Shown piece after piece: positions 17,476 to 41,511 of a DNA stretch of 64,000 nucleotides. This DNA is from Flavipsychrobacter sp. (GTDB lineage: Bacteria > Bacteroidota > Bacteroidia > Chitinophagales > Chitinophagaceae). Below the pieces are notes generated by a model. That model saw only the letters and a list, made by a program, of their open reading frames with translations, was not told the origin of the DNA and searched no databases. A program made the position numbers and the translations under genes. Location: contig JAEUVF010000008.1 in the NCBI GenBank assembly GCA_016787265.1, positions 1 through 64,000 of the forward strand, read 5' to 3'. How positions within the stretch are numbered: the first letter of the stretch is position 1; every line of letters begins with the position of its first letter.

Positions 17476-17552
17476 TTTCCTCCATTATTTTTTCTTCCAT
17501 GCTTTCAGGGTATCCCCTCCTTTTCCGTGTCTTATACATTCACACCCTACAC

Positions 17553-18665: not shown

Positions 18666-18703
18666 AAACGATTGCATATGACCCTCAACACCTCATAAAA
18701 AAA

Positions 18704-18725: not shown

Positions 18726-18798
18726 CTCAGGATACAATTTGATTTATCAACGCTCGCACTGTTGAATAACTGTTTTTGTAACCCTAATTGCTCAAAAT

Positions 18799-22230: not shown

Positions 22231-22261
22231 TACCATTTATTCACGTTTAAAGGATTATACC

Positions 22262-23782: not shown

Positions 23783-23810
23783 TCAATTTTTCACAATAAA
23801 TAAATGAAAA

Positions 23811-24662
23811 ATGAAAACAATTTATAAATTTTTATTTCTTGGTTTGATCGCAGCCTCTGTTCTGCCAGCTTGCCAGAAAGAAAACAGACCCAAATTGGGA
23901 GAATACGAAACAGATGATTCCCGGCCCCCTCTTCCTGAAGGCCCTTTGCGTTTCTTCGTTCCTTTCGGAGATGATCCGCAAAAAAGGTATGAAGCAAAGG
24001 ATAGTGTTTCCGGAGACCCTGCACAGGTTTTTCCATTTGATCTCACAGAAGGTGTAAATGGTAAAGGTGTTCAGTTTACGGATGCAGGCCGCGCCATCAA
24101 ATACATGACAGTGAATGACATGGGATCTGCAACCAGTTTTTCTATTGCGTTCTGGATGAAGAACACGGAAAAAGGTCGCACCGAATTCCTGTTTTCATTA
24201 ACGGATGCGAAATACAATGGCTGGCATCATAGTGCAGTATTCCTGCTTCTGGAAAAAGGTACGCCAAGTGCTGTTACCCTTAAACTCGGTCTCATGGACC
24301 AGTGGCTCGAATTCCCGGATAATAACCAGTTCAAAAAGCCTTTAATGGATGGCAACTGGCATCACCTGGCTTTCGTATATGATGAAACCACCTCCAAAAT
24401 GAATTACTTCTTCGATGGAGAATTGGTTACTGATGTGCCCGCGGGAGCTACCAATGTAACAAAAAATGGTGCTCCAAGAGGAGCCGTTGATTTCTCCACG
24501 GTTAAAAATCTGGTTTTAGGCGGATGGAATAAACATGCTGCATTAGCCGGTCCAACAGATGACTGGATTCGAAGTTTCACTGGCGCAATGGATCAGTTCC
24601 GGATCTATAAGAAAGCGCTTACAGCAGCTGAAGTCCGGGAACTCTTCGTTGGTAAACTTTAA
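23811..24662 (+). CDS. LamG-like (concanavalin A-fold) surface lipoprotein
   Basis: 283 residues. The lipoprotein signal ends at LPACQKE (Cys21). A linker is followed by a laminin-G-like jelly roll, with GVNGKGVQFTDAGRAIKY, FSIAFWMKN, DGNWHHLAFVYDETTSKMNYFFDGEL and a closing IRSFTGAMDQFRIYKKAL segment. Its place after susD suggests a surface glycan-binding protein, analogous in position to SusE/SusF. Binding is inferred; no catalytic residues are evident. A strong terminator follows it. Confidence 0.82.
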   Translation: MKTIYKFLFLGLIAASVLPACQKENRPKLGEYETDDSRPPLPEGPLRFFVPFGDDPQKRYEAKDSVSGDPAQVFPFDLTEGVNGKGVQFTDAGRAIKYMTVNDMGSATSFSIAFWMKNTEKGRTEFLFSLTDAKYNGWHHSAVFLLLEKGTPSAVTLKLGLMDQWLEFPDNNQFKKPLMDGNWHHLAFVYDETTSKMNYFFDGELVTDVPAGATNVTKNGAPRGAVDFSTVKNLVLGGWNKHAALAGPTDDWIRSFTGAMDQFRIYKKALTAAEVRELFVGKL

Positions 24663-24689
24663 AAGAGCCCTTCTTCTATACTACTAACC

Positions 24690-24724
24690 AAAAGGGCTGG
24701 ATTCATTTCAGCCCTTTTATTTTT
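24690..24724 (+). terminator. Internal terminator of the glycan locus
   Basis: A perfect 10-bp stem (AAAAGGGCTG, 24690-24699, with 24709-24718) closes a 9-nt loop and is followed by ATTTTT. It separates the sigma/FecR/SusCD/LamG block from the downstream enzymes. Confidence 0.8.
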
Positions 24725-24725
24725 G
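24718..24725 (+). promoter_or_regulatory. Candidate -7 element restarting transcription after the terminator
   Basis: TATTTTTG matches TAnnTTTG and overlaps the 3' end of the terminator, 18 nt before the ATG at 24744. It lacks an obvious -33 TTG. Confidence 0.3.
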
Positions 24726-24743
24726 CCTTATCAAAACTTGTAT

Positions 24744-27700
24744 ATGTTGTTTTTCAGGCGGACATATCTTCTTCAGGTGGCATTATTCATGCTCATTATA
24801 AGTTCCTGTAAAGACCAGAAAAAATCGCTTTTTGAAAATCTGCCTGCTTCTGAAACAGGTATACAATTCGAAAATAAGCTGGAGGATAAAGAGCTTTTTA
24901 ATATTTTATACTACCTCTACTATTACAACGGTGGAGGTGTGGCAGTAGGGGATATCAACAATGATGGACTGCCCGATTTGTATTTTACCGCCAACAGCAA
25001 AAGCAATAATAAACTTTACCTGAATAAAGGGAATTTCCAATTCGAAGATATTACAGCTATGGCCGGTGTTGCAGGAAAGGCAGATTGGGCCACAGGTGTA
25101 ACAATGGCTGATGTAAACGGTGATGGTTTTCTTGACATATACGTGATGGTAAGCAGCCAGCACCATAATCTTACTGGCCATAATGAACTTTATCTAAACA
25201 ATCAGAATAACACGTTTACAGAATCAGCAGAGAAATATGGGCTAAACTTTGCTGCTATGGGAACACAGGCCGCCTTTTTTGATTATGACAGAGACGGAGA
25301 TCTGGATGTGTACCTTCTGAATCATTCCCAGAAGCCAAACTCCAATATAACGGATACTTCGGCTCGTAGAAAATTCAGTGATATTTCAGGCGACCGATTG
25401 CTGAGAAATGATATTGTATCCACCGGAAAGTTTACAGATGTGTCTGCTTCCGCAGGCATCTATCAAAGCTCATTGGGATATGGCCTTGGCATTGCAATAG
25501 CAGATCTGAATCAGGATGGCTGGGATGATATATATGTAGGTAATGATTTTCATGAAAATGATTACTATTACTTAAATGCTGGTAATGGATCATTTATTGA
25601 AAGCGGCGCTAAACATTTTCGTCATTACAGTCGCTTTAGTATGGGGAATGACATCAATGATATTAATAATGATGGACAGCCTGATATTATAACTGTTGAT
25701 ATGCTGCCTCCGGATGAAAAAGTATTAAAAACCTATGGCAGCGATGAAAACCCCGACACCTATAACTTCAAACTTACGCGCCATGGTTATCAGCATCAGT
25801 ACTCACGCAATAGCCTGCAAATAAATAATGGTCGTGGTGTTAGTTTTAGTGAAACTGCTTTGCTGAGTGGTGTTTCTGCAACAGACTGGAGTTGGGCACC
25901 TCTTTTTGCTGATTTTGATAATGATGGGTATAAGGATCTCTTTATTTCCAGCGGTATTGTAAAACGACCGGTTGACCTGGATTATGTCCGGTTTGTATCA
26001 GACCTGGTAGCAAAAACCGATGAAAAGGATCTCACCCAATTTGACAAAAAAGCGATTGATCAAATGCCAGATGGAGCTTCTCATCCATTTTTTTATAAAG
26101 GTGATGGGAGTTTGGAGTTTCAGGATGTAAGCGATGCCTGGGGCACTGCTGATCTGAAAGGATATTTCAATGGAGCCGCATATGCTGATCTGAATGAGGA
26201 TGGAAAGCTTGATCTGGTTGTGAATCAACTGAATGGGAAAGCCCTTGTGCTTAAGAATAATAGTCCTGATAAATTCACACTCGAACTCCACCTGAAAGGG
26301 TTAAATGCCAATAAATTCGGAATAGGTGCGAAAGTCTGGATATTTTATAATGGTAAAATGCAATACCAGCAGTTGACTTTAACAAGAGGGTTTCAGTCCT
26401 CTGTTGAACCCGTTTTGCATTTCGGACTGGATAGTTTAAAATATGTAGACAGTATGTTGATCGTTTGGCCTGGCCAGAAATTCCAGCTGGTTCGTAATAT
26501 ACCGGCAAAAGGAGCCCTGGAATTCCAGGAAATGCATGCTGGTGGCCAATTCAATTACGATCAATTTTTTCCTCCTTTACAAAAGCAGCTGACAGAAGTA
26601 ACTCAACAGGTCAACCTTAACTGGAAACACAAAGAAAATATTTTTTATGACCAGCACAAGCAATATTTAATCCCACATCAGTTATCCACGTTTGGGCCGG
26701 CACTCGCAGTTGCAGATGTGAATCGAGATGGCCTGGATGATTTTTATATTGGTGGCGCTGCCGGTCAACCGGGACAACTTTTTATTCAACAAAAGAATTC
26801 AGGATTTGTCGCTTCCAAAGGATCTGATTTTTCAGCAGCAATTACCAGTGAAGAAACCAGTGCAGTATTTTTTGATGCAAACGGTGATGGGTATCCCGAT
26901 CTTTACGTGGTAAGTGGGGGAAATGAACTGGAGGATGAACATCCGGATCTCTCCGATCATTTTTATTTGAATGATGGTAAAGGAAATCTGATCCCCTCAC
27001 CCTCTTCTATTCCTTCCATAAAACGAAATAAATCTTGTGTTGATATTGCCGATATTGATAAGGATGGTGATATTGATCTGTTTGTGGGAGGTTTGGCTAA
27101 TGCTAAGATGTATGGAGTATCACAAGATTCCTATTTATTACTGAATGATGGTAACGGTGTATTCGCAATAGCGGGGCAGGAAATTGTCAGATTGGATTCT
27201 CTCGGAATGGTTACCAGCGCAGCATTCCATGATATCAATGCGGATGGGTGGTCTGACTTGGTGGTTGCGGGGGAATGGATGCCGTTGACGCTGTTTCTTA
27301 ATAAAAACGGTCGGTTTGTCAGCACACCATTGCCTGCTTCCAACGGACTTTGGCAATCGCTCTCAGTAATGGATATGAATGGCGATGGGCATCCGGATAT
27401 TTTAGCTGGAAACTGGGGCTTGAATAATAAATTCTCTTCTGATAAAGATGGTCCGGTAAAACTATACATTAAAGATTTCGACAAGAATGGTTCAATAGAA
27501 CAAATTCTTACCTATTCAATTAATGGGGAAGAATATACTTTTTTGGCAAAGGATGAATTGGAACGCGCCCTTCCTGTTTTGAAAAAAGCCTATCTCAAAT
27601 ACAGCGAAGTGGCTGGTAAATCCGTTCAATATATGTTCTACGATTTGTTTACCGGATATATTGAAAAGAAAGCAGAAACGCTTGCTTCCACTTTATTTCT

Positions 27701-28016
27701 GAATGATGGAAAGGGTGGATTTAAACCGAATAAGCTCCCCCTGGAATTCCAGCTTTCTCCCATCTTCTCATCTGCTCCGGTTGGTACTCAACAATGGCTG
27801 CTGGCAGGGAACTTTTATGGTACGATTCCCTATGAAGGAAGATATGACGCATTTCAGCCAACTTTTCTGCAGGTTTTTAATAACCAGCAATTGAAACCCA
27901 ACGGAATGTTGCCAGCTGTTAGTGGTGAGTTCAGAAAAATGAAATGGTTAAAAACATCAGGCGCTCCCTTGTTAATGCTGGTTCGGAATAATGAAGAGCC
28001 GCTTTTCTTTAAATAG
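24744..28016 (+). CDS. FG-GAP/VCBS repeat lipoprotein with ASPIC/UnbV domain
   Basis: About 1090 residues from the ATG at 24744; an earlier in-frame TTG would start inside the terminator. Lipoprotein signal (LIISSCKDQKK). Many calcium-binding FG-GAP/VCBS repeats of the form GDINNDGLPDLY, DVNGDGFLDIY and DFDNDGYKDLF run through the N-terminal half. An ASPIC/UnbV-like domain follows at about 520-600 (NKFGIGAKVWIFYNGK, then LTRGFQSSVEP), and another set of propeller repeats follows that. Such proteins are common in Bacteroidota glycan loci as cell-surface beta-propellers. The binding partner is unknown and no catalytic site is evident. Confidence 0.85.
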   Translation: MLFFRRTYLLQVALFMLIISSCKDQKKSLFENLPASETGIQFENKLEDKELFNILYYLYYYNGGGVAVGDINNDGLPDLYFTANSKSNNKLYLNKGNFQFEDITAMAGVAGKADWATGVTMADVNGDGFLDIYVMVSSQHHNLTGHNELYLNNQNNTFTESAEKYGLNFAAMGTQAAFFDYDRDGDLDVYLLNHSQKPNSNITDTSARRKFSDISGDRLLRNDIVSTGKFTDVSASAGIYQSSLGYGLGIAIADLNQDGWDDIYVGNDFHENDYYYLNAGNGSFIESGAKHFRHYSRFSMGNDINDINNDGQPDIITVDMLPPDEKVLKTYGSDENPDTYNFKLTRHGYQHQYSRNSLQINNGRGVSFSETALLSGVSATDWSWAPLFADFDNDGYKDLFISSGIVKRPVDLDYVRFVSDLVAKTDEKDLTQFDKKAIDQMPDGASHPFFYKGDGSLEFQDVSDAWGTADLKGYFNGAAYADLNEDGKLDLVVNQLNGKALVLKNNSPDKFTLELHLKGLNANKFGIGAKVWIFYNGKMQYQQLTLTRGFQSSVEPVLHFGLDSLKYVDSMLIVWPGQKFQLVRNIPAKGALEFQEMHAGGQFNYDQFFPPLQKQLTEVTQQVNLNWKHKENIFYDQHKQYLIPHQLSTFGPALAVADVNRDGLDDFYIGGAAGQPGQLFIQQKNSGFVASKGSDFSAAITSEETSAVFFDANGDGYPDLYVVSGGNELEDEHPDLSDHFYLNDGKGNLIPSPSSIPSIKRNKSCVDIADIDKDGDIDLFVGGLANAKMYGVSQDSYLLLNDGNGVFAIAGQEIVRLDSLGMVTSAAFHDINADGWSDLVVAGEWMPLTLFLNKNGRFVSTPLPASNGLWQSLSVMDMNGDGHPDILAGNWGLNNKFSSDKDGPVKLYIKDFDKNGSIEQILTYSINGEEYTFLAKDELERALPVLKKAYLKYSEVAGKSVQYMFYDLFTGYIEKKAETLASTLFLNDGKGGFKPNKLPLEFQLSPIFSSAPVGTQQWLLAGNFYGTIPYEGRYDAFQPTFLQVFNNQQLKPNGMLPAVSGEFRKMKWLKTSGAPLLMLVRNNEEPLFFK

Positions 28017-28031
28017 ATAAATGAAACGTAT

Positions 28032-29471
28032 ATGGTGAACCTCTGTAACAGATTTTTTTTGCTTGCTATTGTCTCAATGGCTATTTCCTGCTCCGATAAA
28101 GGTACCGGTGCAAGTATCACACCCACCCCACCACCCCAGAACAGAACAAATGAAATCGACATGTGGATGACAAGGGGGGACCAGGCAGCATTGCTGCAGA
28201 AACAATCTACTGTATTGTATTTTAGTGATACCACAAATATCTATCCTGTAATTGCTGTTGACAGTCTTACCACCTACCAGCCAATCGATGGCTTTGGTTA
28301 TACCCTCACTGGTGGTAGTGCCTATTTGTTGAATGCTATGGGAGCCGGCAGGTCTGCCTTGTTACAGGAGCTGTTCGGAAATGGAACCAACAGTATTGGT
28401 GTCAATTATCTCCGGGTAAGTATTGGGGCCTCTGATCTGAGTGCAGAAGTTTTTAGTTACAATGATTTGCCAGAAGGACAAACCGATCCTGAGCTAAAGA
28501 AATTCTCTTTGAGTAAGGATACAGTTGATCTGATCCCTGTATTAAAGGAGATTCTGGCTATTAATCCCACTATCAAAATCATGGGATCTCCCTGGAGTCC
28601 TCCTGTTTGGATGAAAGATAATAAGAGTTCAATTGGAGGTAGTCTGCTTCCACAGTATTACTCAACCTACGCTAACTATTTTGTTAAGTACATCAATGCC
28701 ATGAAAGAAAATGGTATTACTATTGATGCAGTCACCATTCAGAATGAACCACAGCACGGAGGTAATAATCCCAGTATGGTTATGTCTCCAGAACAACAGG
28801 CAGACTTTATCAAAAATCACCTTGGTCCTGCTTTTCAGTCAGCCGGAATAAATACGAAAATCATTATCTGGGATCATAATTGTGATAATCCAAATTATCC
28901 CATTACTATTCTGAATGATCCTGATGCTAAAAAATATGTAGATGGATCAGCTTTCCATCTTTATGCCGGTGATATCAGCGCACTTTCAACAGTTCATACT
29001 GCCCATCCGGATAAATCCCTCTATTTTACCGAGCAGTGGACTTCTTCTAAAGGGGATTTTGGTGGTGATCTGAAATGGCACGTTAAAAATGTAATCATAG
29101 GGTCTATGCGAAACTGGAGTAAGATTGCGTTGGAATGGAACCTCGCAAACAATGTAAATTTTGGACCTCATACTCCCGGTGGCTGCACAGAATGCAAAGG
29201 TGCCCTTACTATTAATGGCTCCTCTTTTACAAGAAATGTCAGCTATTATATAATCGCTCATGCTTCTAAATTCCTTCCTTCCGGTTCTCTTCGAATAGGA
29301 AGTAACAATATTAATAATCTTCCGAACGTGGTATTTAAAAGACCTGATGGGAAAAAAGTGATGATTGTTTTGAATGATGGGAATGAACCAGTGGGTTTCA
29401 ATATTAAATATAATAACAAACTTGCCTTTACGTCCTTGCCTGCAGGTGCAGTTGCTACTTATATCTGGTAA
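28032..29471 (+). CDS. GH30 family beta-glycosidase (lipoprotein)
   Basis: 479 residues. The lipoprotein signal has its acylated Cys at 20 (VSMAISCSDKG). The GH30 TIM barrel follows with IDGFGYTLTGGSA near 85, GSPWSPPVWMK near 185, the acid/base Glu239 in TIQNEPQ and the nucleophile Glu334 in YFTEQW. The C-terminal beta domain ends the protein. GH30 members of this kind cleave beta-1,6-glucan or glucosylceramide-type bonds. Next to two GH144 genes and a GH3 gene, a beta-glucan substrate is the sensible reading. It starts 15 bp after the propeller protein gene and runs directly into the first GH144 gene (2-bp gap). Confidence 0.9.
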   Translation: MVNLCNRFFLLAIVSMAISCSDKGTGASITPTPPPQNRTNEIDMWMTRGDQAALLQKQSTVLYFSDTTNIYPVIAVDSLTTYQPIDGFGYTLTGGSAYLLNAMGAGRSALLQELFGNGTNSIGVNYLRVSIGASDLSAEVFSYNDLPEGQTDPELKKFSLSKDTVDLIPVLKEILAINPTIKIMGSPWSPPVWMKDNKSSIGGSLLPQYYSTYANYFVKYINAMKENGITIDAVTIQNEPQHGGNNPSMVMSPEQQADFIKNHLGPAFQSAGINTKIIIWDHNCDNPNYPITILNDPDAKKYVDGSAFHLYAGDISALSTVHTAHPDKSLYFTEQWTSSKGDFGGDLKWHVKNVIIGSMRNWSKIALEWNLANNVNFGPHTPGGCTECKGALTINGSSFTRNVSYYIIAHASKFLPSGSLRIGSNNINNLPNVVFKRPDGKKVMIVLNDGNEPVGFNIKYNNKLAFTSLPAGAVATYIW

Positions 29472-29473
29472 AT

Positions 29474-31147
29474 ATGAAAGCTGTTCGTTTTTATTCAGTA
29501 TTAATAGGATTCCTGGCCTTCTTTGCTTGCGGAAAATCATCTGATGAATCGCAGCCTCCTGCTCAATCATCACGGCCAATTGCTGTTACTAGTGTTCTTA
29601 TGGGCAGTAAACCAATGGCAGATAAGGAATACGATGTACCTATATCTCCAAAATTTACTTTCCGTTTTAATGAACCTGTTTCCACATCAACCATTACCGG
29701 AGCAATTGAATTTAAATCACAAGATGGCGAACATAACCCGCAGTTTTCGTTTACTGTCGGTCAGAATGACTCAGTTATTGTTATTGCTACAACTTCGCCT
29801 CTTAAGCACCTGACGCAGTATAAATTATCACTGAATGCTTCCCTGAAATCAGCATCGGGGGGGAGATTTATTTCTGTTGTAAATAAAACATTTCTCACCA
29901 GTATTGATTCCTCCTCCAAATTCCCTGAGCTCACGGATGACGCACTGCTTACCAAAGTGCAGGAACAAACTTTCCGGTATTTCTGGGACTTTGGTCACCC
30001 CGTTAGTGGGATGGCCAGGGAACGAAACAGTTCCGGCGACCTGGTAACCAGCGGTGGCACAGGCTTTGGCATTATGGCCCTGCTGGTTGGAATTGAACGT
30101 GGATTTATTACCCGTCAACAGGGATTGGAACGACTCCAAACAATAGTTGAGTTTTTGAAAACCAAAGCCACCCGCTACCATGGAGCTTTTGCCCACTGGA
30201 TGAATGGTGCAACCGGCGCTACCATCCCCTTTAGTCAGAAAGATAATGGTGCCGACCTGGTTGAAACCTCTTTTCTTATCATGGGCCTGCTCACCGCACG
30301 CGAATATTTTGATGATAACGCCCCGGCAGCAATTGAATTACGGTCCCGCATAACCGAAATCTACGAAGCAGTTGAGTGGGACTGGTTCCTGCGCAATAAT
30401 GGAAATGTTCTCTTCTGGCACTGGAGCCCTGATTTCGGCTGGGATATGAACCTGCCCATCCGAGGCTGGAACGAATGCCTGGTTACCTATGTGCTGGCTG
30501 CCGGTTCTCCCACGCATCCGGTTACAAAAGAGGTATATGATAAGGGATGGGCCAGGGAAGGTGCCATGAAAAATGGTGCATCTTATTTTGGTATTAATTT
30601 GCCGCTGGGTGAGCCTTATGGTGGTCCGCTGTTTTTATCCCATTATTCCTTTCTGGGTATCAATCCGATAGGTCTTAAAGATGCCTACGCTGATTATGAG
30701 GTGCAGAACCGTCAGCATGCAAAAATTAATTACCAGCACAGTATACAAAACCCGAACCGGTTTTTTGGATACAGCGGCAGTGTATGGGGACTAACAGCCA
30801 GCGATATCCCAAATGGATATACGGCCAGTTCTCCACAGAACGACCGGGGTGTAATTGCTCCAACAGCAGCACTCGCATCTTTTCCCTATACGCCGGATGA
30901 ATCAATGGCTGCTCTGAAGTTTTACTATTATGTCCTTGGTGATAAACTTTTTAAAGAGTACGGTTTTATTGATGCATTCTCCCTTCACAATGCCTGGTTT
31001 GCTGATAGTTTCCTGGCCATTGACCAGGCCCCGATAATTGTGATGATTGAAAACCATCGGACCGGTTTGTGCTGGGACCTTTTTTCAGCTGCACCTGAAG
31101 TAAAGGCCGCACTGCGTAAACTGGGATTTACTGCACCCTATCTATAA
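29474..31147 (+). CDS. GH144-type endo-beta-1,2-glucanase family lipoprotein with Ig-like domain
   Basis: 557 residues. Lipoprotein signal (LAFFACGKSSDE), then an Ig-like domain (about 30-140, SPKFTFRFNEPVSTSTITG), then an alpha/alpha-toroid catalytic domain (about 150-555). Conserved blocks are FRYFWDFGHPVSGMARE, TSGGTGFGIMA, DNGADLVETSFL, FWHWSPDFGWDMN, GGPLFLSHYSFLGINP and VIAPTAALASFPYTPDE. These are the blocks of the Glycoamylase Pfam family that became GH144. Its characterised members, including one from Chitinophaga, hydrolyse linear beta-1,2-glucan to sophorooligosaccharides. The lipid anchor suggests surface or periplasmic display. Confidence 0.88.
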   Translation: MKAVRFYSVLIGFLAFFACGKSSDESQPPAQSSRPIAVTSVLMGSKPMADKEYDVPISPKFTFRFNEPVSTSTITGAIEFKSQDGEHNPQFSFTVGQNDSVIVIATTSPLKHLTQYKLSLNASLKSASGGRFISVVNKTFLTSIDSSSKFPELTDDALLTKVQEQTFRYFWDFGHPVSGMARERNSSGDLVTSGGTGFGIMALLVGIERGFITRQQGLERLQTIVEFLKTKATRYHGAFAHWMNGATGATIPFSQKDNGADLVETSFLIMGLLTAREYFDDNAPAAIELRSRITEIYEAVEWDWFLRNNGNVLFWHWSPDFGWDMNLPIRGWNECLVTYVLAAGSPTHPVTKEVYDKGWAREGAMKNGASYFGINLPLGEPYGGPLFLSHYSFLGINPIGLKDAYADYEVQNRQHAKINYQHSIQNPNRFFGYSGSVWGLTASDIPNGYTASSPQNDRGVIAPTAALASFPYTPDESMAALKFYYYVLGDKLFKEYGFIDAFSLHNAWFADSFLAIDQAPIIVMIENHRTGLCWDLFSAAPEVKAALRKLGFTAPYL

Positions 31148-31162
31148 CCTAAAACAACAGCG

Positions 31163-32515
31163 ATGAAAATCCGCCATTTTGTTTTTTTCTGCTGCCTGTT
31201 TGGCGCCTTCAACGGTGTTGCCTATGCGCAAAAGAAAAAGCAACCGAAACCGCTAGCTTTTTCTGCAGCAGATCGTCCCCGGAATCTTTCTGATTCTGCT
31301 TTACTCGATCTGGTACAGCAACAAACCTTTCGCTATTTCTGGGATTTTGCGCATCCGGTTTCCGGACTCTCACGGGAACGCAGCAACGAATCCTTTAATT
31401 ATGGGGGTGAGGTAGTTACAACCGGTGGTACCGGCTTCGGAATTATGGCAGTGATTGTGGCAACTGAAAGAAAATGGATCGGGCGTGATACTGCCGCGAA
31501 ATTCCTGCTCAAAATGGTACGCTTTCTTTCCAAGGCAGATTCCTATCATGGTGTTTTTCCACATTGGTTAAATGGGGAAACTGGTAAAACAATTCCTTTT
31601 AGTCGCAAAGACGATGGTGCCGACCTGGTAGAGTCTTCTTTTCTGTTCCAGGGTCTGTTGACAGCACGACAATACTTCAATGCAGATAATCCGGTTGAAG
31701 GAGAACTCCGAAACCGGATCAACTGGCTCTGGAATGATATCGAATGGAACTGGTTTACCAATAACCAGGAGGTGCTCTACTGGCACTGGAGTCCTAATAA
31801 CGGATGGGCAATGAATTTTCCGGTGCGGGGTTTTAATGAATGCCTGATCATGTATGTGCTGGCCGCCTCAGCAGATCGCTATCCGGTTTCTCCCGCGGTT
31901 TATCACAATGGATGGGCTCAGAGTAATTTCTTTAAAAATGGCAAAGAGTTTTATGGGATAGAACTACCCCTGGGATTTGACTTTGGCGGACCTCTTTTCT
32001 TTTCTCATTATTCTTTTCTGGGTTTAGATCCCCGCGGATTACAGGATCGTTATGCAGATTATTGGATTCAAAATCGCAACCATACCTTAATCAACCGCGA
32101 ACATTGTGTGCGTAATCCTAATCAGTTCAAAGGATATGGCCCACAATCATGGGGGCTCACCGCCAGTGATACCTACAACGGTTATGATGCGCATTCGCCA
32201 ACCAATGACAAAGGCACCATCACACCCACTGCTGCACTTTCAGCTTTTCCTTATACACCGGAATATTCCATGCAGGCAGTTCGCCATTTTTATGAACAAT
32301 TGGGTGATAAGATCTGGTCGGAATACGGTTTTGTAGATGCCTTCAATGAAACACAAAACTGGTATGCTTCCAGTCACCTTGCAATTGATCAGGGACCTAT
32401 CATAGTTATGATCGAAAATCATCGTAGCGGTTTACTTTGGAACCTGTTCATGTCCTGCCCGGAAGTACAACGCGGTCTTAAAAAACTGGGCTTTCAAAGC
32501 CCGCACCTTAAATAA
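31163..32515 (+). CDS. GH144-type endo-beta-1,2-glucanase family protein, second copy
   Basis: 450 residues with a classical signal peptide (MKIRHFVFFCCLFGAFNGVAYAQ) and no Ig-like domain. The toroid is closely parallel to the upstream paralogue: FRYFWDFAHPVSGLSRE, TTGGTGFGIMAV, DDGADLVESSFL, YWHWSPNNGWAMN, FSHYSFLGLDP and TITPTAALSAFPYTPE. The lack of a lipobox predicts a soluble periplasmic enzyme, so the pair may divide surface and periplasmic cleavage of the same polymer. It starts 15 bp after the first copy. Confidence 0.88.
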   Translation: MKIRHFVFFCCLFGAFNGVAYAQKKKQPKPLAFSAADRPRNLSDSALLDLVQQQTFRYFWDFAHPVSGLSRERSNESFNYGGEVVTTGGTGFGIMAVIVATERKWIGRDTAAKFLLKMVRFLSKADSYHGVFPHWLNGETGKTIPFSRKDDGADLVESSFLFQGLLTARQYFNADNPVEGELRNRINWLWNDIEWNWFTNNQEVLYWHWSPNNGWAMNFPVRGFNECLIMYVLAASADRYPVSPAVYHNGWAQSNFFKNGKEFYGIELPLGFDFGGPLFFSHYSFLGLDPRGLQDRYADYWIQNRNHTLINREHCVRNPNQFKGYGPQSWGLTASDTYNGYDAHSPTNDKGTITPTAALSAFPYTPEYSMQAVRHFYEQLGDKIWSEYGFVDAFNETQNWYASSHLAIDQGPIIVMIENHRSGLLWNLFMSCPEVQRGLKKLGFQSPHLK

Positions 32516-32544
32516 TAGTTACAGCAATTGCTAAAACCTTGCAT

Positions 32545-33705
32545 ATGAAAAATCAATCCCGTAAAGAATTTCTTCAGCAGTCTGCCATGGCAGGTACCGC
32601 ACTGCTGCTTTCTTCTTTGGAAGCAGTAGCATCCAAAGAGAATAAAAAAATCAAAATTGGAATAGTGGGCTGTGGTAGTGTATCCGGTCAGTACCTGCCA
32701 CATCTTTCCAAATCGGCGCATGTGGAACTGGTAAGTGTCTGCGATATTGTGCTGGAAAGAGCAAAGAACCGGGCGAAAGAATTTAATGTTCCGCATGTGT
32801 ATGAACATATCTACCAGCAGCTTGGCGGTGCAGCTTTTGATCTGCTTGTGAATCTGACGGATATGCAGGAGCATGGCCGGCTCAATAAAATGGCCCTGGC
32901 TTCCGGCAAGCATGTATGGAGTGAAAAACCAATGGCCAATACCTACAAGGAAGGCAAGGCACTGCTGGATATGGCCCGTGAAAAAAAACTGCGCATCTGG
33001 GGAGCGCCTGCAGTGGTGAACAGTCCGCAATTTGCTTTCATGAGTAAAGCTATCCAGGAAGGTAAACTCGGCAAGGTTGCTGCAGCACATGCACATTATG
33101 GCCATGAAGGCCCGCACTGGTCGGCTTTCTTCTATGAAAAAGGCGGCGGCAGTCTTCCTGATCTGGGTGTTTATAATCTTGCTACCTTAACAGGGTTGTT
33201 GGGTCCTGCGAAATCTGTGATCGCCATGACAACCATTGTTACGTCTGAACGTACTGTCGATAACAAGGGCAAAATCAAAGTGGAGGCCGAAGACAATGCG
33301 ATGATCATTATGGAACATGCTGGCGGTGTGCTGTCTCATGTGCAGAGCGGGTTTAATTATTTCGATCCCTATGGCCATGGTGGTAAGGGGCAGGATCGGC
33401 ATACAATTTCTATCTGGGGTACAAAGGGCAATATGGGATTGGTAGGATATGACTGGGCTCCTTTTGGTGTAGACCTTGCAACCATGGATGCGCCAACTCC
33501 TATAAGGCATGTGCCGGATCCCGGCTCCTATGTGTGGCAGGAAGGTGCAACCGTGATTTCAAAATCACTGCTCGATAAAAACGAACCGCTGATTTCTCCC
33601 GAACATGCATTGCACGTGCTGGATATTATTGAATCCGCCCGTGCCTCATCGCAAACCGGCCAGAAAATCAGCCTTCAATCCAGCTTCCGCTGGCCTATCG
33701 TCTAA
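32545..33705 (+). CDS. Exported Gfo/Idh/MocA family oxidoreductase
   Basis: About 386 residues from the ATG at 32545. The N-terminus QSRKEFLQQSAMAGTALLLSS resembles a twin-arginine signal with Arg-Lys instead of Arg-Arg, as often seen in exported members of this family. Rossmann fold (KIGIVGCGSVSGQYL), EKP in HVWSEKPMAN, and a substrate domain with GHEGPHWSAFFYEKGGG. In Bacteroidota such proteins sit with GMC oxidoreductases and DUF1080 proteins in loci for 3-keto-sugar chemistry, where they can interconvert a C3 hydroxyl and a ketone. That role is inferred from neighbours here. Confidence 0.85.
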   Translation: MKNQSRKEFLQQSAMAGTALLLSSLEAVASKENKKIKIGIVGCGSVSGQYLPHLSKSAHVELVSVCDIVLERAKNRAKEFNVPHVYEHIYQQLGGAAFDLLVNLTDMQEHGRLNKMALASGKHVWSEKPMANTYKEGKALLDMAREKKLRIWGAPAVVNSPQFAFMSKAIQEGKLGKVAAAHAHYGHEGPHWSAFFYEKGGGSLPDLGVYNLATLTGLLGPAKSVIAMTTIVTSERTVDNKGKIKVEAEDNAMIIMEHAGGVLSHVQSGFNYFDPYGHGGKGQDRHTISIWGTKGNMGLVGYDWAPFGVDLATMDAPTPIRHVPDPGSYVWQEGATVISKSLLDKNEPLISPEHALHVLDIIESARASSQTGQKISLQSSFRWPIV

Positions 33706-33716: not shown

Positions 33717-35408
33717 ATGAGTGACCAACATACATACGACGCAATTGTAATCGGCAGCGGCATCAGCGGAGGTTGGGCTGCCAAAGAACTCTGTGAGCAG
33801 GGCCTGAAAACCCTGGTTCTGGAGCGTGGCCGGATGGTGGAACACCTGAAAGATTATCCCAACATGAACAACCATCCCTGGGAATTCAAACACAGGGGAT
33901 ATATCACACAGCAGCAACGTCAAAATAATCCACTCATCTCTAAAGCAGCCGGCTATTCAGAAGATACACAGCATTTTTTCATCGAAGATGCAGATCATCC
34001 GTATGTACAGGAGAAACCCTTTGACTGGATCCGCGGTTACCAGGTCGGAGGAAAGTCCCTGACCTGGGGCAGAAGCTGTCAGCGCTGGAGTGATTTTGAA
34101 TTCAATGCTCCCAAACAATATGGCTTTGCTACCGACTGGCCAATCCGCTACAAGGACATCGCACCCTGGTACAGTCATGTTGAAAAATTTATTGGGGTGT
34201 GCGGCAGCCAGGAGAATATCCCCGCAATGCCAGATGGCGAATTCCTCCCTGCCTATGAACTCAATTGTGTGGAAGCGGACATGAAGCAACTGCTTTGGAA
34301 GAAATTTAAACGTCATTTTATTTCCGGCCGTTGGGCACATCTTACCCAGCCGGAACCTATTCACCTGGAGCAGGGCAGAGGCACCTGCCAGAATCGCAAC
34401 CTCTGTATGCGCGGTTGCCCCTTTGGCGGATATTTCAGCTCCAACAGCAGCACCCTCCCCTGGGCAGAAAAAACCGGCAACCTGACCATAAGGCCCCATT
34501 CGGTGGTGCATTCCATTCTTTATGATGATGCCAAACAAAAGGCGATTGGAGTACGCGTGATAGACAGCCAGACAAAATCCACCACCGATTATTTTGCTAG
34601 AATCATTTTTGTAAACGCTTCGGCTCTTAATACCAACCTGATCTTACTCAATAGCAAATCAGAACGTTTCCCCAACGGTCTTGGTAATGACCATGATCTT
34701 CTTGGACGTTACATCTGTTTCCACAACTATCGGGGGTATATGAATGGAGAAATCAAAGGCTATGAAGAAAAATACTACAAAGGTCGCCGTCCGGCCGAGT
34801 GCGTGATCCCAAATTTCCGCAACCTCGGTAAACAGGAAACGGATTTTGTGGGAGGTTATACTATTTTTTCAGGTGCCTACCGGGAATGGATAAACGCAGA
34901 TCGCCATCCTGATAAAATGGGTGCAGAGTTGAAAGAAGCACTTACAGAACCAGGCCCCTGGCGGATCTATATGTATATGCAGGGTGAAACCATTCCCAAG
35001 GCAACCAACCGGGTTTACCTGCATCCAACAAAAAAAGATCAATGGGGTATTCCCCTGCTGGTAACCGATGTTGACTATGATGAAAACGATGAAAAAATGC
35101 TGCAGGATTTTTTAACGGAAGGCAAAAAAATGCTAGAAGCCTGTGGCGCATTCAACATTGTTGTAAATGATACGAAACAACCACCAGGACTGGACATTCA
35201 TGAAATGGGTGGCGTACGTATGGGTACCGATCCTTCCGATTCCATGCTCAATGAATGGAATCAATTGCATCTCTGTAAAAATGTATTTGTTACGGATGGG
35301 GCCTGTATGACCAGTACGGGAAATCAAAGCCCATCAATATTATATATGGCATTCACAGCAAGAGCAGCACAATTTGCCGCTGCTGAAATGAAAAAAGGGA
35401 ATCTCTAA
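33717..35408 (+). CDS. GMC family FAD-dependent oxidoreductase
   Basis: 563 residues. FAD-binding GSGISGG (13-19) in AIVIGSGISGGWAA is followed by the GMC-type flavin attachment region (GYQVGGKSLTWGRSC). The C-terminal catalytic pair is His495 (DIHEMGGVRMG) and Asn536 (TGNQSPSIL). The Cys-rich stretch CQNRNLCMRGCPFGG is typical of bacterial sugar/gluconate dehydrogenase members. There is no signal peptide, so either it stays in the cytoplasm or it is carried by a partner; the usual small Tat-exported subunit is not encoded here. The likely job is oxidation of a sugar C3 hydroxyl. It is followed 11 bp later by the DoxX fusion. Confidence 0.87.
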   Translation: MSDQHTYDAIVIGSGISGGWAAKELCEQGLKTLVLERGRMVEHLKDYPNMNNHPWEFKHRGYITQQQRQNNPLISKAAGYSEDTQHFFIEDADHPYVQEKPFDWIRGYQVGGKSLTWGRSCQRWSDFEFNAPKQYGFATDWPIRYKDIAPWYSHVEKFIGVCGSQENIPAMPDGEFLPAYELNCVEADMKQLLWKKFKRHFISGRWAHLTQPEPIHLEQGRGTCQNRNLCMRGCPFGGYFSSNSSTLPWAEKTGNLTIRPHSVVHSILYDDAKQKAIGVRVIDSQTKSTTDYFARIIFVNASALNTNLILLNSKSERFPNGLGNDHDLLGRYICFHNYRGYMNGEIKGYEEKYYKGRRPAECVIPNFRNLGKQETDFVGGYTIFSGAYREWINADRHPDKMGAELKEALTEPGPWRIYMYMQGETIPKATNRVYLHPTKKDQWGIPLLVTDVDYDENDEKMLQDFLTEGKKMLEACGAFNIVVNDTKQPPGLDIHEMGGVRMGTDPSDSMLNEWNQLHLCKNVFVTDGACMTSTGNQSPSILYMAFTARAAQFAAAEMKKGNL

Positions 35409-35419: not shown

Positions 35420-37582
35420 ATGACGTCCTTCCATTCAACACAAAAAACAATCTGGCTGGAACCCGGTTGGGCATTGGTGAGAATTATTACCGGATTATTA
35501 ATGACCTACCATGGATGGGAAGTATTTGATGCGGCGAAAATCAAGGAATATGCAGGTTGGATGACGTATTTCTCTGCCGGAACCGCAACCGCAATGGCAT
35601 ATCTTGGAAAGGTATCCGAGCTGGTTTCCGGTATCTTACTTACCCTTGGTTTATTTACAAGACTGGCAGTTTGGCCCATGATTGCCGCCATGTTGTTTAT
35701 TGCTTTTATTCTGGGGAATGGTAAAATCTGGTATGGCGACCAGCATCCGTTTTTATTTGTGTTGCTCGGTTTATTGTTTTTTTTCAGAGGCGCAGGTAAA
35801 TACAGCCTGGATCAGCGTTATTATTCTCGTGGACTTGCTATCATGCTGCTCCTTTTTGCTGCGATTCCAATTTATGCTCAAACAAACAAAACTGCTGCTA
35901 CCGCACAAACTACCTACTGCAATCCTATCAATCTTGATTACGGTTATACACCCATTCCCAATTTTAGTGAATGGGGCCGGCATCGCGCTACCGCTGATCC
36001 GGTAATCGTGACCTATAAAGGTGATTACTATCTGTTCTCCACTAACCAGTGGGGGTACTGGTGGAGTTCCGATATGCTGAACTGGAATTTTGTATCCCGC
36101 AAATTCCTCAAACCCTATCACAAAGTATATGATGAACTATGTGCACCTGCAGCTGTTGTGGTAGGTGATACCATGCTTGTTTTCGGATCTACCTACTCCA
36201 GCAATTTCCCCCTCTGGATGAGTACCAACCCAAAGGAGAATGAATGGAAGGAAGCACTGGATTCACTCGAAATAGGAGGTTGGGATCCTGCTTTTTTCCT
36301 CGACGATGATGGCCGCTTTTATATGTACAATGGCAGTAGTAATCGCTATCCTTTATACGGCATTGAATTAAATCGCAAAACATTCCAGCCAATTGGTACC
36401 CGGAAGGAAATGTATTTCCTGGAAGACTGGCGTTATGGCTGGCATCGCTTTGGTGAATACATGGACAACACTTTTTTAGATGGCTTCATCGAAGGTGCCT
36501 GGATGACCAAACACAAGGGGAAATATTATCTGCAGTGGGGTGGTCCGGGTACGGAAATGAGTGGATATGCCGATGGCGTTGTAGTAGGTGATTCACCCCT
36601 CGGACCCTTTACTGCGCAATCAGATCCGGTCAGCTTTAAACCCGGAGGTTTTGCAAGAGGAGCGGGACATGGCGCCACCTACCAGGATCCATGGAATAAT
36701 TACTGGCATGTTTCTACCATGGGCATCAATGTAAAAAACACATTTGAACGTCGCAATGGCATCTGGCCGGCTGGCTTTGATGAAGATGGAATCATGTATG
36801 CCAATACTGCATTTGGTGATTACCCACATTACCTCCCGGGTGGTCCGGCTGATCATCGTAAAAGCCGCTTTACCGGCTGGATGTTACTCAATTACAAAAA
36901 ACCGGTTCAGGTTTCGTCTACACTTGGCAGTTATACCGCCAACAACGCGGTGGATGAATCTATCAAAACCTATTGGAGTGCAGCATCCGGCAATCGAGGT
37001 GAATGGATACAAACCGACCTTGGGGAAATTTCCACTATACATGCCATTCAACTCAACTATGCTGATCAGGATGCGGAATTTCTTGGTAAACAAACCGACA
37101 TTTATCATCAGTATAAAATTTACCATTCACAGGATGGAAAAAAGTGGAGCCTGCTCATAGATAAAAGCCAGAATAAAAAAGATGTACCCCACGATTATAT
37201 TGAGCTAAAGGATCCTATAAAATCCCGATACCTCAAATTGGAAAATATTCACATGCCAACCGGAAAATTTGCATTGTCTGGTTTCAGGGTATTCGGGAAA
37301 GGAAATGGAGCCCGGCCTTCTGCGGTAAAGACATTTTTCGTTCTTAGAACTGAAAAGGACAAACGAAGCGCCTATATCAAATGGTCGCCGGTTGACCAGG
37401 CTTATGCGTATAATATTTATTACGGAACAGCGCCCGATAAATTGTACAATTGTATCATGGTGCATGATGTAAACGAATACTATTTTAAAGGCATGGATAA
37501 GGAGAAAGTTTACTATTACACCATCGAAGCGGTGAATGAAAACGGCGTTTCGGAAAAAACTCCCGTTCAACAGGTAAACTAA
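35420..37582 (+). CDS. DoxX-GH43-F5/8C-Fn3 fusion protein
   Basis: 720 residues encoding what are normally two proteins. Residues 1-132 form a complete four-helix DoxX-type membrane protein (LVRIITGLLMTYHGWEVF to FFFRGAGKYSLD). Residues 138-153 form a hydrophobic segment ending in IYAQ, which looks like the leftover signal peptide of the second protein. Residues 165-485 are a GH43-like five-bladed propeller with candidate catalytic residues Asp193 (TADPVI), Asp289 (GGWDPAFF) and Glu358 (FIEGAW). A discoidin-like F5/8C domain (about 495-630) and an Fn3-like domain (640-720) follow. No internal stop, frameshift sign or convincing second start is visible, so the enzyme would be tethered to the inner membrane facing the periplasm. 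Confidence 0.85.
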   Translation: MTSFHSTQKTIWLEPGWALVRIITGLLMTYHGWEVFDAAKIKEYAGWMTYFSAGTATAMAYLGKVSELVSGILLTLGLFTRLAVWPMIAAMLFIAFILGNGKIWYGDQHPFLFVLLGLLFFFRGAGKYSLDQRYYSRGLAIMLLLFAAIPIYAQTNKTAATAQTTYCNPINLDYGYTPIPNFSEWGRHRATADPVIVTYKGDYYLFSTNQWGYWWSSDMLNWNFVSRKFLKPYHKVYDELCAPAAVVVGDTMLVFGSTYSSNFPLWMSTNPKENEWKEALDSLEIGGWDPAFFLDDDGRFYMYNGSSNRYPLYGIELNRKTFQPIGTRKEMYFLEDWRYGWHRFGEYMDNTFLDGFIEGAWMTKHKGKYYLQWGGPGTEMSGYADGVVVGDSPLGPFTAQSDPVSFKPGGFARGAGHGATYQDPWNNYWHVSTMGINVKNTFERRNGIWPAGFDEDGIMYANTAFGDYPHYLPGGPADHRKSRFTGWMLLNYKKPVQVSSTLGSYTANNAVDESIKTYWSAASGNRGEWIQTDLGEISTIHAIQLNYADQDAEFLGKQTDIYHQYKIYHSQDGKKWSLLIDKSQNKKDVPHDYIELKDPIKSRYLKLENIHMPTGKFALSGFRVFGKGNGARPSAVKTFFVLRTEKDKRSAYIKWSPVDQAYAYNIYYGTAPDKLYNCIMVHDVNEYYFKGMDKEKVYYYTIEAVNENGVSEKTPVQQVN

Positions 37583-37593: not shown

Positions 37594-38334
37594 ATGCAAA
37601 TTCAGTTCAAAATTTTTCGGACAAAAATTTTTGTAGTCGCGCTTCTTTCACTTGTCACTTGTCAGGCATTTGCGCAACAACAGGCGCCGTCTGTAGAACA
37701 TGCAAAAGCTCCTTCATTGGAATTCTATCAGGGCAAACCTTTTTATGATGCGATTCGTGCTTTTCAAAAGGCAGACAGTTTACAAATGCCGGCATCCAAA
37801 TCGATTCTTTTGATTGGGAGTTCTTCTTTCACTTACTGGAGAGATGTAGCCAATTATTTCCCGGGCTACCGGATCATTAATCGTGGTTTTGGGGGTTCGT
37901 CCCTTCCAGACCTGATTCGTTATCAGGATTATATCATTTATCCCTACAACCCAAAACAGATTCTGATCTATTGCGGGGAAAATGATTTTGCAGCCGCAGA
38001 TACAGTAAGTATTTCAACTGTTGTTAATCGGTTCAAACAATTATTCTGGGATATACGTGTCCGATTGCCCCGGGTTCCCATCAGTTATATTTCAATGAAG
38101 CCAAGTCCTAGCCGGGCTGCTTTACTTCCAAAATTCAAAGAAGCCAATCAGCAGATCAGGACCTTCCTCGCCACGCAAAAAGCTACTTCTTATATCGATG
38201 TTTACGATGCAATGCTGAAGCCCGATGGACGTCCTATTGCCGACATATTTACAAAGGACAGTCTTCATATGAACCCGCAGGGTTATGTGATCTGGCAAAA
38301 GCAGATCAGGCCGCATCTGAGAAAAACAAAATGA
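37594..38334 (+). CDS. Secreted SGNH/GDSL hydrolase
   Basis: 246 residues. A signal peptide (VVALLSLVTCQAFAQ) is followed by the SGNH blocks: the nucleophile Ser in LLIGSSSFTYW, Gly in GFGGSS, Asn in YCGENDF, and the Asp/His pair in DSLHMNPQGY. Enzymes of this fold remove acyl (often acetyl) groups from glycans or lipids. Within this locus de-esterification of a decorated glucan is plausible but unproven. It lies 11 bp after the DoxX fusion and 15 bp before the GH3 gene. Confidence 0.88.
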   Translation: MQIQFKIFRTKIFVVALLSLVTCQAFAQQQAPSVEHAKAPSLEFYQGKPFYDAIRAFQKADSLQMPASKSILLIGSSSFTYWRDVANYFPGYRIINRGFGGSSLPDLIRYQDYIIYPYNPKQILIYCGENDFAAADTVSISTVVNRFKQLFWDIRVRLPRVPISYISMKPSPSRAALLPKFKEANQQIRTFLATQKATSYIDVYDAMLKPDGRPIADIFTKDSLHMNPQGYVIWQKQIRPHLRKTK

Positions 38335-38349: not shown

Positions 38350-40638
38350 ATGAAATACAATGTACTCCCGCTTCGATTGATAATTGTTCTGTCAATATTA
38401 TTGCCCTGGTCAGCCCATTCTCAAACTGCTCCAACTAAAATGAATCAGTTTGTATCCGGACTACTGGCTAAAATGACAGTCCAGGAAAAGATCGGACAAC
38501 TGAATCTTGTTGTTGGAGGCGAAGCAACAACCGGCTCTGTTGTAAGTACCGGGGTGGAAGAGAAAATCAAACAGGGTAAAGTGGGTGGCATCTTTAGTGT
38601 TTCCTCTCCGCAGCGCATTCGTAGAATTCAGGAACTGGCGGTACAGCAAAGCCGTTTGAAAATTCCCATCATATTCGGAATGGATGTGATTCATGGATAC
38701 CGTACCATTTTTCCTATCCCATTGGGATTGGCAGCTTCCTGGGATATGCAACGCATTGAACAATCAGCCCGCATTGCCGCACAGGAAGCTACAGCAGACG
38801 GACTGAACTGGACCTTTTCCCCCATGGTGGATGTATCTCGTGATCCCCGCTGGGGAAGGATTTCAGAAGGTTCGGGGGAGGATCCCTTTCTCGGTTCAGC
38901 CATCGCGGTAGCAATGGTTAAAGGTTACCAGGGCAAGAATTTAGCTGCAGATAATACCCTGCTTGCCTGCGTGAAACATTTCGCCCTTTATGGCGCAGCA
39001 GAAGCAGGCCGCGATTATCACTCCGTTGATATGAGCCGCATAAAAATGTTCAACGATTACTTACCTCCCTATAAAGCTGCCATTGATGCTGGTGTTGGTA
39101 CGGTTATGAGTTCCTTTAATGATGTTGATGGTATTCCCGCAAGTGCCAACAAATGGTTACTGACCGACCTGTTACGCAAGCAATGGGGTTTCAAAGGAAT
39201 GGTTGTGTCGGATTACACATCAGTTAATGAAATGATCGACCATGGGCTGGGTGATCTTAAGCAAGTATCTGCTCTTGCTATTAAAGCCGGACTCGATATG
39301 GATATGGTGGGGGAAGGTTTTTTAACCACCCTGGAAGCTTCCCTGAAAGAAGGCAAGATTACCATGGCGGATATTGATCGCGCCTGCAGGATGGTGCTGG
39401 AAGCCAAGTACAAACTGGGACTCTTTGAAGATCCCTTCCGGTATTGCAATGAGCAGAGAGCCGCAACAGAAATATTTTCATCCGCACACAGAAAGATTGC
39501 GCGTGAAACAGCTGCCCGCTCTTTTGTGCTGCTGAAGAACCAGGGTGTATTACCACTTGCAAAAAAGGGATCCATTGCATTGGTTGGTCCGCTTGCAGAT
39601 GCGAAGGAAAACATGGTGGGAACCTGGTCGGTTTCAGCAGATGTTTCCAAAGCTACCTCTCTGTTAGCCGGACTTAAAGAAGTTGCAGGTTCAGGTGTGA
39701 ATGTTCGGTATGCCAAAGGTGCAAATGTTACGGAGGATTCTGCACTGGAAGCACGCACTAGTGTATTTGGAAAACCCTGGCAGCGGGATTCGAGACATCC
39801 GGATACACTGATTGCTGAAGCAGTGCGGTTGGCCCTGCAGTCTGATGTAGTGGTGGCTGCAATGGGAGAGCTGGCGGAATTTACAGGTGAAGCTTCCAGC
39901 AGAACCGATCTCAACCTGCCAAACAGCCAGAAAAAACTACTGGATGCGTTGATGGCAACCGGCAAACCTGTTGTAATGGTGCTCTTTACTGGCCGTCCGC
40001 TCACGATTGTAGAAGAAGATAAAAAGCTTCCCGCTATTTTGAATGTATGGTTTGGTGGCTCGGAAGCAGGATATGCGATTAGTGATGTATTATTTGGCGA
40101 TGTGAATCCATCTGGAAAACTACCGGTCACCTTTCCACGAAATGTGGGACAAATTCCGATTTACTACAGTTATAAAAATACCGGCCGCCCATTGGTGGGC
40201 GATGAATTCCAGAAGTTCCGTTCCAATTACCTGGATGTTTCCAATACACCACTGTATCCATTTGGTTACGGACTTAGTTATACGAAGTTTGATTATAGTC
40301 CGGTTACTTTATCTAAATCATCGCTGAAAGGTGCAGAGAAATTAATTGCCCGGGTAACGGTAACCAATAGTGGTAAATACGCCGGTGAAGAAGTGGTGCA
40401 GTTATACCTTCGTGATATCGTGGCGAGTAATACCCGGCCTTTGAAGGAGTTGAAAGGTTTTCAGAAGATTCTGTTGCAGCCTGGAGAATCCAGAGAAATC
40501 AGTTTCGAAATCACTACTGATTTGCTGAAGTTCTACGATCATAACCTTCGTTATGATTGGGAGCCGGGGGAGTTTACTGTATTCATTGGAACCAATTCCC
40601 GCGATGCCCAGTCTGCCAACTTCCGCTGGTCCCGCTGA
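38350..40638 (+). CDS. GH3 family beta-glucosidase (BglX-like)
   Basis: 762 residues. Signal peptide (LIIVLSILLPWSAHSQ), N-terminal GH3 barrel with GMDVIHGYRTIFPIPLG and WTFSPMVDVSRDPRWGR, the nucleophile Asp288 in MVVSDYTSVNEM, then the C-terminal GH3 alpha/beta sandwich and an Fn3-like domain (VTVTNSGKYAGEEVVQLYLRD). Periplasmic GH3 enzymes of this architecture release glucose from the non-reducing end of beta-gluco-oligosaccharides. Sophorooligosaccharides from the GH144 enzymes would be a natural substrate. A palindromic repeat follows 8 bp after the stop. Confidence 0.93.
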   Translation: MKYNVLPLRLIIVLSILLPWSAHSQTAPTKMNQFVSGLLAKMTVQEKIGQLNLVVGGEATTGSVVSTGVEEKIKQGKVGGIFSVSSPQRIRRIQELAVQQSRLKIPIIFGMDVIHGYRTIFPIPLGLAASWDMQRIEQSARIAAQEATADGLNWTFSPMVDVSRDPRWGRISEGSGEDPFLGSAIAVAMVKGYQGKNLAADNTLLACVKHFALYGAAEAGRDYHSVDMSRIKMFNDYLPPYKAAIDAGVGTVMSSFNDVDGIPASANKWLLTDLLRKQWGFKGMVVSDYTSVNEMIDHGLGDLKQVSALAIKAGLDMDMVGEGFLTTLEASLKEGKITMADIDRACRMVLEAKYKLGLFEDPFRYCNEQRAATEIFSSAHRKIARETAARSFVLLKNQGVLPLAKKGSIALVGPLADAKENMVGTWSVSADVSKATSLLAGLKEVAGSGVNVRYAKGANVTEDSALEARTSVFGKPWQRDSRHPDTLIAEAVRLALQSDVVVAAMGELAEFTGEASSRTDLNLPNSQKKLLDALMATGKPVVMVLFTGRPLTIVEEDKKLPAILNVWFGGSEAGYAISDVLFGDVNPSGKLPVTFPRNVGQIPIYYSYKNTGRPLVGDEFQKFRSNYLDVSNTPLYPFGYGLSYTKFDYSPVTLSKSSLKGAEKLIARVTVTNSGKYAGEEVVQLYLRDIVASNTRPLKELKGFQKILLQPGESREISFEITTDLLKFYDHNLRYDWEPGEFTVFIGTNSRDAQSANFRWSR

Positions 40639-40716: not shown

Positions 40717-41511
40717 ATGAACCGTTACAGGCTTTTTTCAGTAGCACCCATTGCGTTGCTGGTCTTCGTCTGCTCCTTTTCACAGCATGGCTCTGATGAA
40801 AAGAAGTGGATCGAACTCTTCAATGGTAAGCATGTCCGCAACTGGATCGTGAAGGTCAATCATCATGATGCGGGAGTGAATTTTGGAAATACTTTCCGGG
40901 TGGAGGATGGTCTTATTAAGGTTCGGTATGATCAGTATGGTGCTTATAATGACCAGTTTGCACATTTGTATTTCAAACGCCCCTTCTCGCACTATCACTT
41001 GCTGGTTGAGTATAGATTTACTGGAAAATTCAAGGAAGATGCACCGGGTTATACCTATCGTAACAGTGGGGTTATGCTGCATTCCCAGGATCCCCGCACC
41101 ATGTTGAAAGACCAGGATTGGCCTATATCCATAGAAATGCAATTTCTGGGTGGATTGGGGGATGGCAAGCCACGGACTACCGGTAACCTCTGTACGCCGG
41201 GTACCAATGTAGTATATGAAGGGAAGCTGGATACCCGTCACTGTATTGATTCCAGGTCTAATACCTATGATGGGGATCAGTGGGTAACAGCAGAAGCCAT
41301 TGTAATGGGTGACAGCCTGGTCAAACATATAATTAATGGCGATACAGTACTTCAATATTCCAAACCTCAGATTGGCGGCGGCGTGGTAAATAATTTCAAT
41401 CCTGCCATCAAAATTGATGGTACGCCTCTCAAAAAGGGATTTATCGCGCTTCAGTCGGAAGGACAGGAGATCGATTTTCGGCGGGTTGCAATCCGAATCC
41501 TTCGGCGCTGA
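40717..41511 (+). CDS. DUF1080 family protein (3-keto-glycoside hydrolase family)
   Basis: 264 residues. An N-terminal signal-type segment (LFSVAPIALLVFVCSFSQ) is followed by a single DUF1080 jelly-roll: KKWIELFNGKHVRNWIVK, SHYHLLVEYRFTGK, NSGVMLHSQDP, and the closing GFIALQSEGQEIDFRRVAIR. The Pfam family is named 3-keto-disaccharide hydrolase, because characterised members cleave glycosides whose ring has been oxidised at C3. Together with the GMC and Gfo/Idh/MocA genes upstream it completes the set expected for a 3-keto route. The length is typical. Confidence 0.88.
   Translation: MNRYRLFSVAPIALLVFVCSFSQHGSDEKKWIELFNGKHVRNWIVKVNHHDAGVNFGNTFRVEDGLIKVRYDQYGAYNDQFAHLYFKRPFSHYHLLVEYRFTGKFKEDAPGYTYRNSGVMLHSQDPRTMLKDQDWPISIEMQFLGGLGDGKPRTTGNLCTPGTNVVYEGKLDTRHCIDSRSNTYDGDQWVTAEAIVMGDSLVKHIINGDTVLQYSKPQIGGGVVNNFNPAIKIDGTPLKKGFIALQSEGQEIDFRRVAIRILRR

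Follow-up and report, generated by a model that had tools for sequence, protein, structure and literature searches.

A single open reading frame in the window, the 64,000-nucleotide stretch of DNA analyzed here, joins a DoxX-type membrane protein to a predicted GH43 glycosidase. This arrangement raises the question of whether the fusion is genuine, how it arose, and whether its product acts as one protein or as two. The frame runs unbroken from ATG to TAA over 720 codons, and a stop in the same frame lies 11 codons before its ATG (Table 1). The DoxX, GH43 and F5/8C domains score 46.0, 62.7 and 62.8 bits in Pfam, respectively, against curated cut-offs of 23.6, 32.2 and 28.2. The original prediction, made from the sequence alone, had placed DoxX, a hydrophobic segment and a GH43/F5-8C/Fn3 enzyme in one frame; all of this was recovered except Fn3, which Pfam did not detect in the 720-aa window protein. 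In the fused protein of F. petaseus, Fn3 scored below threshold.

The PF07681 score and four membrane helices in a structural model place the N-terminal part in the DoxX family. These helices (residues 13-36, 53-76, 80-98 and 110-123) are long and were modelled with pLDDT mostly above 90. Searches of the PDB with DoxX returned no characterized relative by sequence (best E 0.92) and no match by fold below E 1. The enzyme part belongs to GH43 by its PF04616 score and by Asp, Asp and Glu in the expected motifs, residues whose catalytic roles (D193, D289, E358) we presume from family knowledge. Its closest solved fold was BT_3662 (5msx), a GH43 of Bacteroidetes polysaccharide loci. The two share a five-bladed propeller type fold at 19% identity over the match, but the window protein differs by its N-terminal DoxX.

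Table 1. Features of the fused gene and its locus, with positions in the window
Feature	Position	Residues	Strand	Basis
Upstream part of locus: ECF sigma, FecR, SusC, SusD, LamG, VCBS-like protein, GH30, two PF10091 (GH144-type) enzymes	16851..32515		+	Pfam and inspection
Gfo/Idh/MocA oxidoreductase, Tat-like N-terminus (SRKEFLQQS...)	32539..33705		+	Pfam and N-terminus
GMC oxidoreductase, 11 bp upstream of fusion	33717..35408		+	Pfam; N-terminus inspected
Fused gene: DoxX, internal signal-peptide-like segment, GH43, F5/8C (720 aa)	35420..37582		+	Intact ORF, Pfam, fused homologues
DoxX domain PF07681	35468..35713	17-98	+	Pfam; model helices
Internal signal-peptide-like segment RYYSRGLAIMLLLFAAIPIYA	35816..35878	133-153	+	Sequence comparison; low-confidence helix 137-161 in model
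Sole in-frame ATG of junction, in mid hydrophobic core; would give no n-region	35843..35845		+	Sequence
Variable linker QTNKTAATAQTT after predicted site, containing second AQ	35879..35914		+	Sequence comparison
GH43 catalytic domain PF04616	35990..36793	191-458	+	Pfam
Expected GH43 general base (ADP motif)	35996..35998	Asp193	+	Invariant in 43 sequences; role from family knowledge
Expected GH43 pKa-modulating Asp (WDP)	36284..36286	Asp289	+	Invariant in 43 sequences; role from family knowledge
Expected GH43 general acid (IEG)	36491..36493	Glu358	+	Invariant in 43 sequences; role from family knowledge
F5/8 type C (CBM32-like) domain PF00754	36908..37252	497-611	+	Pfam
SGNH/GDSL hydrolase, signal peptide, 11 bp downstream of fusion	37594..38334		+	Pfam and N-terminus
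GH3-like glycosidase	38350..40638		+	Named by sequence resemblance
3-keto-disaccharide hydrolase (DUF1080, PF06439)	40717..41511		+	Pfam

Fused and separate genes in Chitinophagaceae

Judged by its named relatives, the window comes from a Flavihumibacter genome. A GH43 homologue is present in all 15 Flavihumibacter genomes. It lies in one frame with DoxX in seven (the window species, F. cheonanensis, F. fluminis, Prado059, UBA7668, CACIAM 22H1 and F. petaseus), and DoxX is a separate, adjacent upstream gene in six. The two genes share a frame with one or two stops between them in F. stibioxidans, F. solisilvae, ZG627 and F. profundi, and adjacent DoxX is in a different frame from GH43 in G012 and G007; G003 and G010 have DoxX elsewhere than beside GH43. 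In the nearest unfused relatives DoxX ends at a stop, followed by a Met, a signal peptide and GH43, sometimes in the same frame and less than 150 bp apart. Separate pairs of this kind, in the four same-frame species and others, are unfused homologues that match the fusion in order, domains and signal-peptide end but differ by the stop codon and new Met between both proteins. By sequence comparison, separate genes in close relatives are the ancestral state.

A wider search drew 396 genomes of the family, 216 of which gave a strong GH43 match. Among the matches listed, the only fusions outside Flavihumibacter were in G104 and G244, from one other Chitinophagaceae genus, and their DNA confirmed an unbroken DoxX-GH43 frame (L121 7855-10062, and L122). 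Both retain a complete old signal peptide, MKKWYLLVFACCMAMGAEAQ, with its Met inside the fused frame, and apparently represent an early fusion stage. The old start codon and original n-region are gone from the Flavihumibacter fusions. The family-wide DoxX scan covered the best matches listed and says nothing on the frequency of other DoxX fusions; a literature search on DoxX-glycosidase fusions yielded nothing usable.

Loss of a stop codon through an assembly or sequencing artefact might be suspected in a draft assembly, and two of the six other Flavihumibacter fused copies, Prado059 and CACIAM 22H1, are themselves drafts with damaged 3' ends. However, nine genomes that were sequenced independently share this frame; their synonymous divergence is saturated and their junction sequences differ, which contradicts an artefact and leaves it a negligible chance. 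Among the checks named by the original prediction were recurrence of the fusion in relatives and exclusion of a sequencing frameshift. Because the unbroken frame recurs in six other Flavihumibacter as well as in G104 and G244, the fusion is not a sequencing error. Its proposed origin, two adjacent genes joined by loss of a stop, was right in that adjacent genes were joined and, as unfused relatives show, the internal signal peptide was once the beginning of the second gene. It was incomplete in that the window clade has lost more than the stop, namely the start codon and n-region too. In CACIAM 22H1 (L011 / L051), frameshifts disrupt the fused gene towards its 3' end and the locus includes a run of N; this damage is probably a draft-assembly gap.

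On the GH43 tree, the fusion label needs three changes of state, falling in the six-species window clade, in F. petaseus, and in the second genus (G104/G244). A single clade of all fused rows, second genus included, was rejected (p-AU 6e-84), as were F. petaseus grouped with G104/G244 (p-AU 0.00013) and, in the first sampling, one clade of Flavihumibacter fusions (p-AU 0.00037). The three changes could in principle include losses of the fusion. Such losses are unlikely because stop, start and n-region must all be restored, and because junctions differ in length and sequence. Judged by these trees, the fusion arose at least three separate times in Chitinophagaceae. Mean pS among the six window-clade genomes was 0.57-0.64, with many pairs near or past correction; with synonymous sites this near saturation, the window-clade fusion must be old. 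In the same six genomes, pN/pS was 0.13 for DoxX, 0.53 for the junction, 0.03 for GH43 and 0.11 for the C-terminal modules, values indicating that DoxX and GH43 are under purifying selection, that the C-terminal modules too are constrained, and that the junction varies freely.

The DoxX of the window clade is unusually diverged from other Flavihumibacter DoxX. Replacement of the DoxX gene in the fused clade was considered, as a first tree suggested that its DoxX is not closest to the others of the genus. With more rows, a grouping of the genus was not rejected (p-AU 0.147), and gene replacement is therefore not claimed. An alignment with same-frame read-through rows was used instead of a 55-row alignment in which short, DoxX-only rows were misplaced.

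The junction and its predicted cleavage site

A hydrophobic segment with a signal-peptide-like end, as originally predicted, occupies residues 133-153, and the predicted cut falls after Ala153 and before Gln154 (codon 35879-35881). Across the six-genome window clade, every one of the 22 junction columns varies except A(-1) and Q(+1); the chance that two random invariant columns would be this pair is 1/231. A site of signal-peptidase-I type appears to be retained at the junction of the fused proteins, reading TNG|Q (i.e. Gly-Gln) in F. petaseus. As far as sequence can tell, the fusion is real, old and repeatedly evolved, and its predicted internal cleavage site is preserved. The view of the segment as merely a relic of a signal peptide is not supported, since A|Q alone is invariant in the junction. 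A hydrophobic N-terminal segment followed by [AGSP]Q was seen in each of the 71 separate homologues examined, with AQ in 55 of them. Gln at +1 is a lineage habit, not a requirement, so part of the A|Q conservation could be slow drift.

The post-cleavage linker of F. petaseus holds a 25-bp palindrome-like sequence at approximately L047:10487-10511 (G009:C22:2213316-2213340). Ten near-copies of it were found in the F. petaseus genome and none in a reversed-sequence control, in G000 or in G004. The sequence is a small dispersed repeat inserted in frame.

Fate of the fused product

We favor, with a probability of roughly 0.62, a polyprotein with an internal signal peptide that is cut at Ala153|Gln154 into the same two products as the separate genes give. 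DoxX would insert into the inner membrane with four helices, and charges and family knowledge suggest that both of its termini are cytoplasmic. The former GH43 signal peptide, residues 133-153, would then serve as an internal signal sequence, with the basic DoxX tail as its n-region. Its hydrophobic core would initiate export and signal peptidase I would cleave after Ala153, leaving DoxX in the membrane and freeing the GH43-F5/8C enzyme into the periplasm. Synthesis of the two products would be equimolar.

Precursors cut by signal peptidase I at an internal site are a known but rare plan in bacteria. Cleavage has reportedly been demonstrated by experiment for FbcH, the cytochrome b/c1 precursor of Bradyrhizobium, which is said to yield two subunits of one respiratory complex. 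Like the window gene, FbcH combines a multi-spanning membrane protein, an internal signal sequence and a periplasmic protein in a single frame, with separate genes in other species. In contrast, the partners in the window are a DoxX protein and a glycosidase, and their cleavage is a prediction. The order expected of such a polyprotein, a membrane protein first, a secreted protein second and no usable internal start between them, is found in the seven fused Flavihumibacter; G104/G244 depart from it by keeping the internal Met. A 386-aa frame on G000:C9, which we take to encode a BT_3928-like DoxX protein, also has a DoxX-type membrane part and a further C-terminal part in one gene. Proteins of this type have neither the signal-peptidase site nor the glycosidase, and their architecture is unrelated.

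The original prediction envisaged a glycosidase held by the membrane protein. If the segment were an uncleaved fifth transmembrane helix, DoxX would permanently anchor GH43 on the periplasmic face of the inner membrane. With the N and C termini of DoxX inside, the fifth segment would face outward, and the enzyme would thus be periplasmic, cut or uncut. The unbroken frame and lack of a usable internal start agree with such an anchor, and selection for physical linkage could account for fusion having arisen independently at least three times. In a short-construct model, the junction formed one fifth, low-confidence but continuous helix (residues 137-161), which could equally be a permanent anchor; in the full-length 720-aa model, the junction was mostly below pLDDT 50. 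However, nothing in a simple membrane anchor calls for Ala-Gln at the outer end. The hydrophobic stretch is short, about 10-16 residues, and in several species Pro, Asp or Asn interrupts it; in relatives with separate genes the enzyme has a signal peptide of the cleavable type. Since no position of the junction other than A|Q is invariant, cleavage explains the pattern more economically, and we consider permanent anchoring possible but unlikely. It keeps a real share of probability because cleavage is a prediction and because an estimate of biological hydrophobicity could not tell a signal peptide from an anchor; the helices of DoxX itself scored no better.

Ribosomes might instead restart within the frame, making free GH43 with its own signal peptide alongside the fusion. 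Persistence of the internal Met and complete signal peptide in G104/G244 speaks for this, and its likelihood is higher there; for the window clade we judge it improbable. The junctions of the seven fused Flavihumibacter contain no ATG, GTG or TTG from which translation would include an n-region as well as a core. F. cheonanensis, F. fluminis, CACIAM 22H1 and F. petaseus have none of these codons between the DoxX end and the hydrophobic core, and in the window, Prado059 and UBA7668 such codons occur only inside the core or at its border, where they would leave no n-region.

The genomes form a natural series that begins with two genes, passes through a recent fusion retaining its former start (G104/G244) and ends with old fusions that hold nothing but the cleavage site constant, and fusion is repeated in at least three lineages. 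Whether fusions of membrane and exported proteins are tolerated because signal peptidase undoes them becomes a testable general question. There is also a warning for annotation, in that a 'DoxX-GH43' entry of 80 kDa may have no counterpart as a single mature protein. More speculatively, the repeated joining of DoxX to a periplasmic glycosidase might reflect selection for a joint product that functions differently from its two parts. The enzyme might, for example, be held at the inner membrane, or its export be coupled to DoxX insertion, though we lean against either. If true, a joint product of this kind would reveal an undescribed DoxX role in polysaccharide use.

The surrounding locus and the proposed redox link

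The fused gene lies within a polysaccharide utilization locus in which genes from GH30 through the GH3-like gene are spaced by 2-23 bp. Its PF10091-GH43-GH3 core recurs in Chitinophagaceae and Sphingobacteriaceae, and a GH3-like neighbor of GH43 is conserved in most relatives. A poorly understood family, DoxX, is thereby tied to a conserved glycan-degradation locus.

An electron-transfer link was also part of the original prediction: DoxX would take electrons from the GMC oxidoreductase, and the fusion would bring the glycosidase to the oxidized sugar. GMC, DoxX and GH43 are consecutive in every Flavihumibacter with the pair and in G104/G244, and the same locus contains Gfo/Idh/MocA and DUF1080 keto-sugar genes. 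Nevertheless, at the level of the locus DoxX and GMC do not consistently co-occur. GMC adjoins GH43 with no DoxX between them in L055 and L056, and in L049, L050, L052, L059, L060, L073 and L123 DoxX adjoins GH43 while the locus as retrieved contains no GMC. Inspection of the N-terminus of the window GMC oxidoreductase revealed no signal peptide, and the PDB searches gave DoxX no characterized relative. Given that either gene can adjoin GH43 in the other's absence, and with no export signal on GMC, a GMC-DoxX electron path is unsupported by distribution, and we now regard it as very improbable.

Most other enzymes of the operon are exported, whereas the GMC oxidoreductase has no signal peptide; it may stay in the cytoplasm or leave it together with a partner. 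Gfo/Idh/MocA, GMC and the DUF1080 3-keto-disaccharide hydrolase all lie in one SusC/D locus (32539-41511), which suggests that part of the glycan is cleaved via a 3-keto oxidation route besides ordinary hydrolysis.
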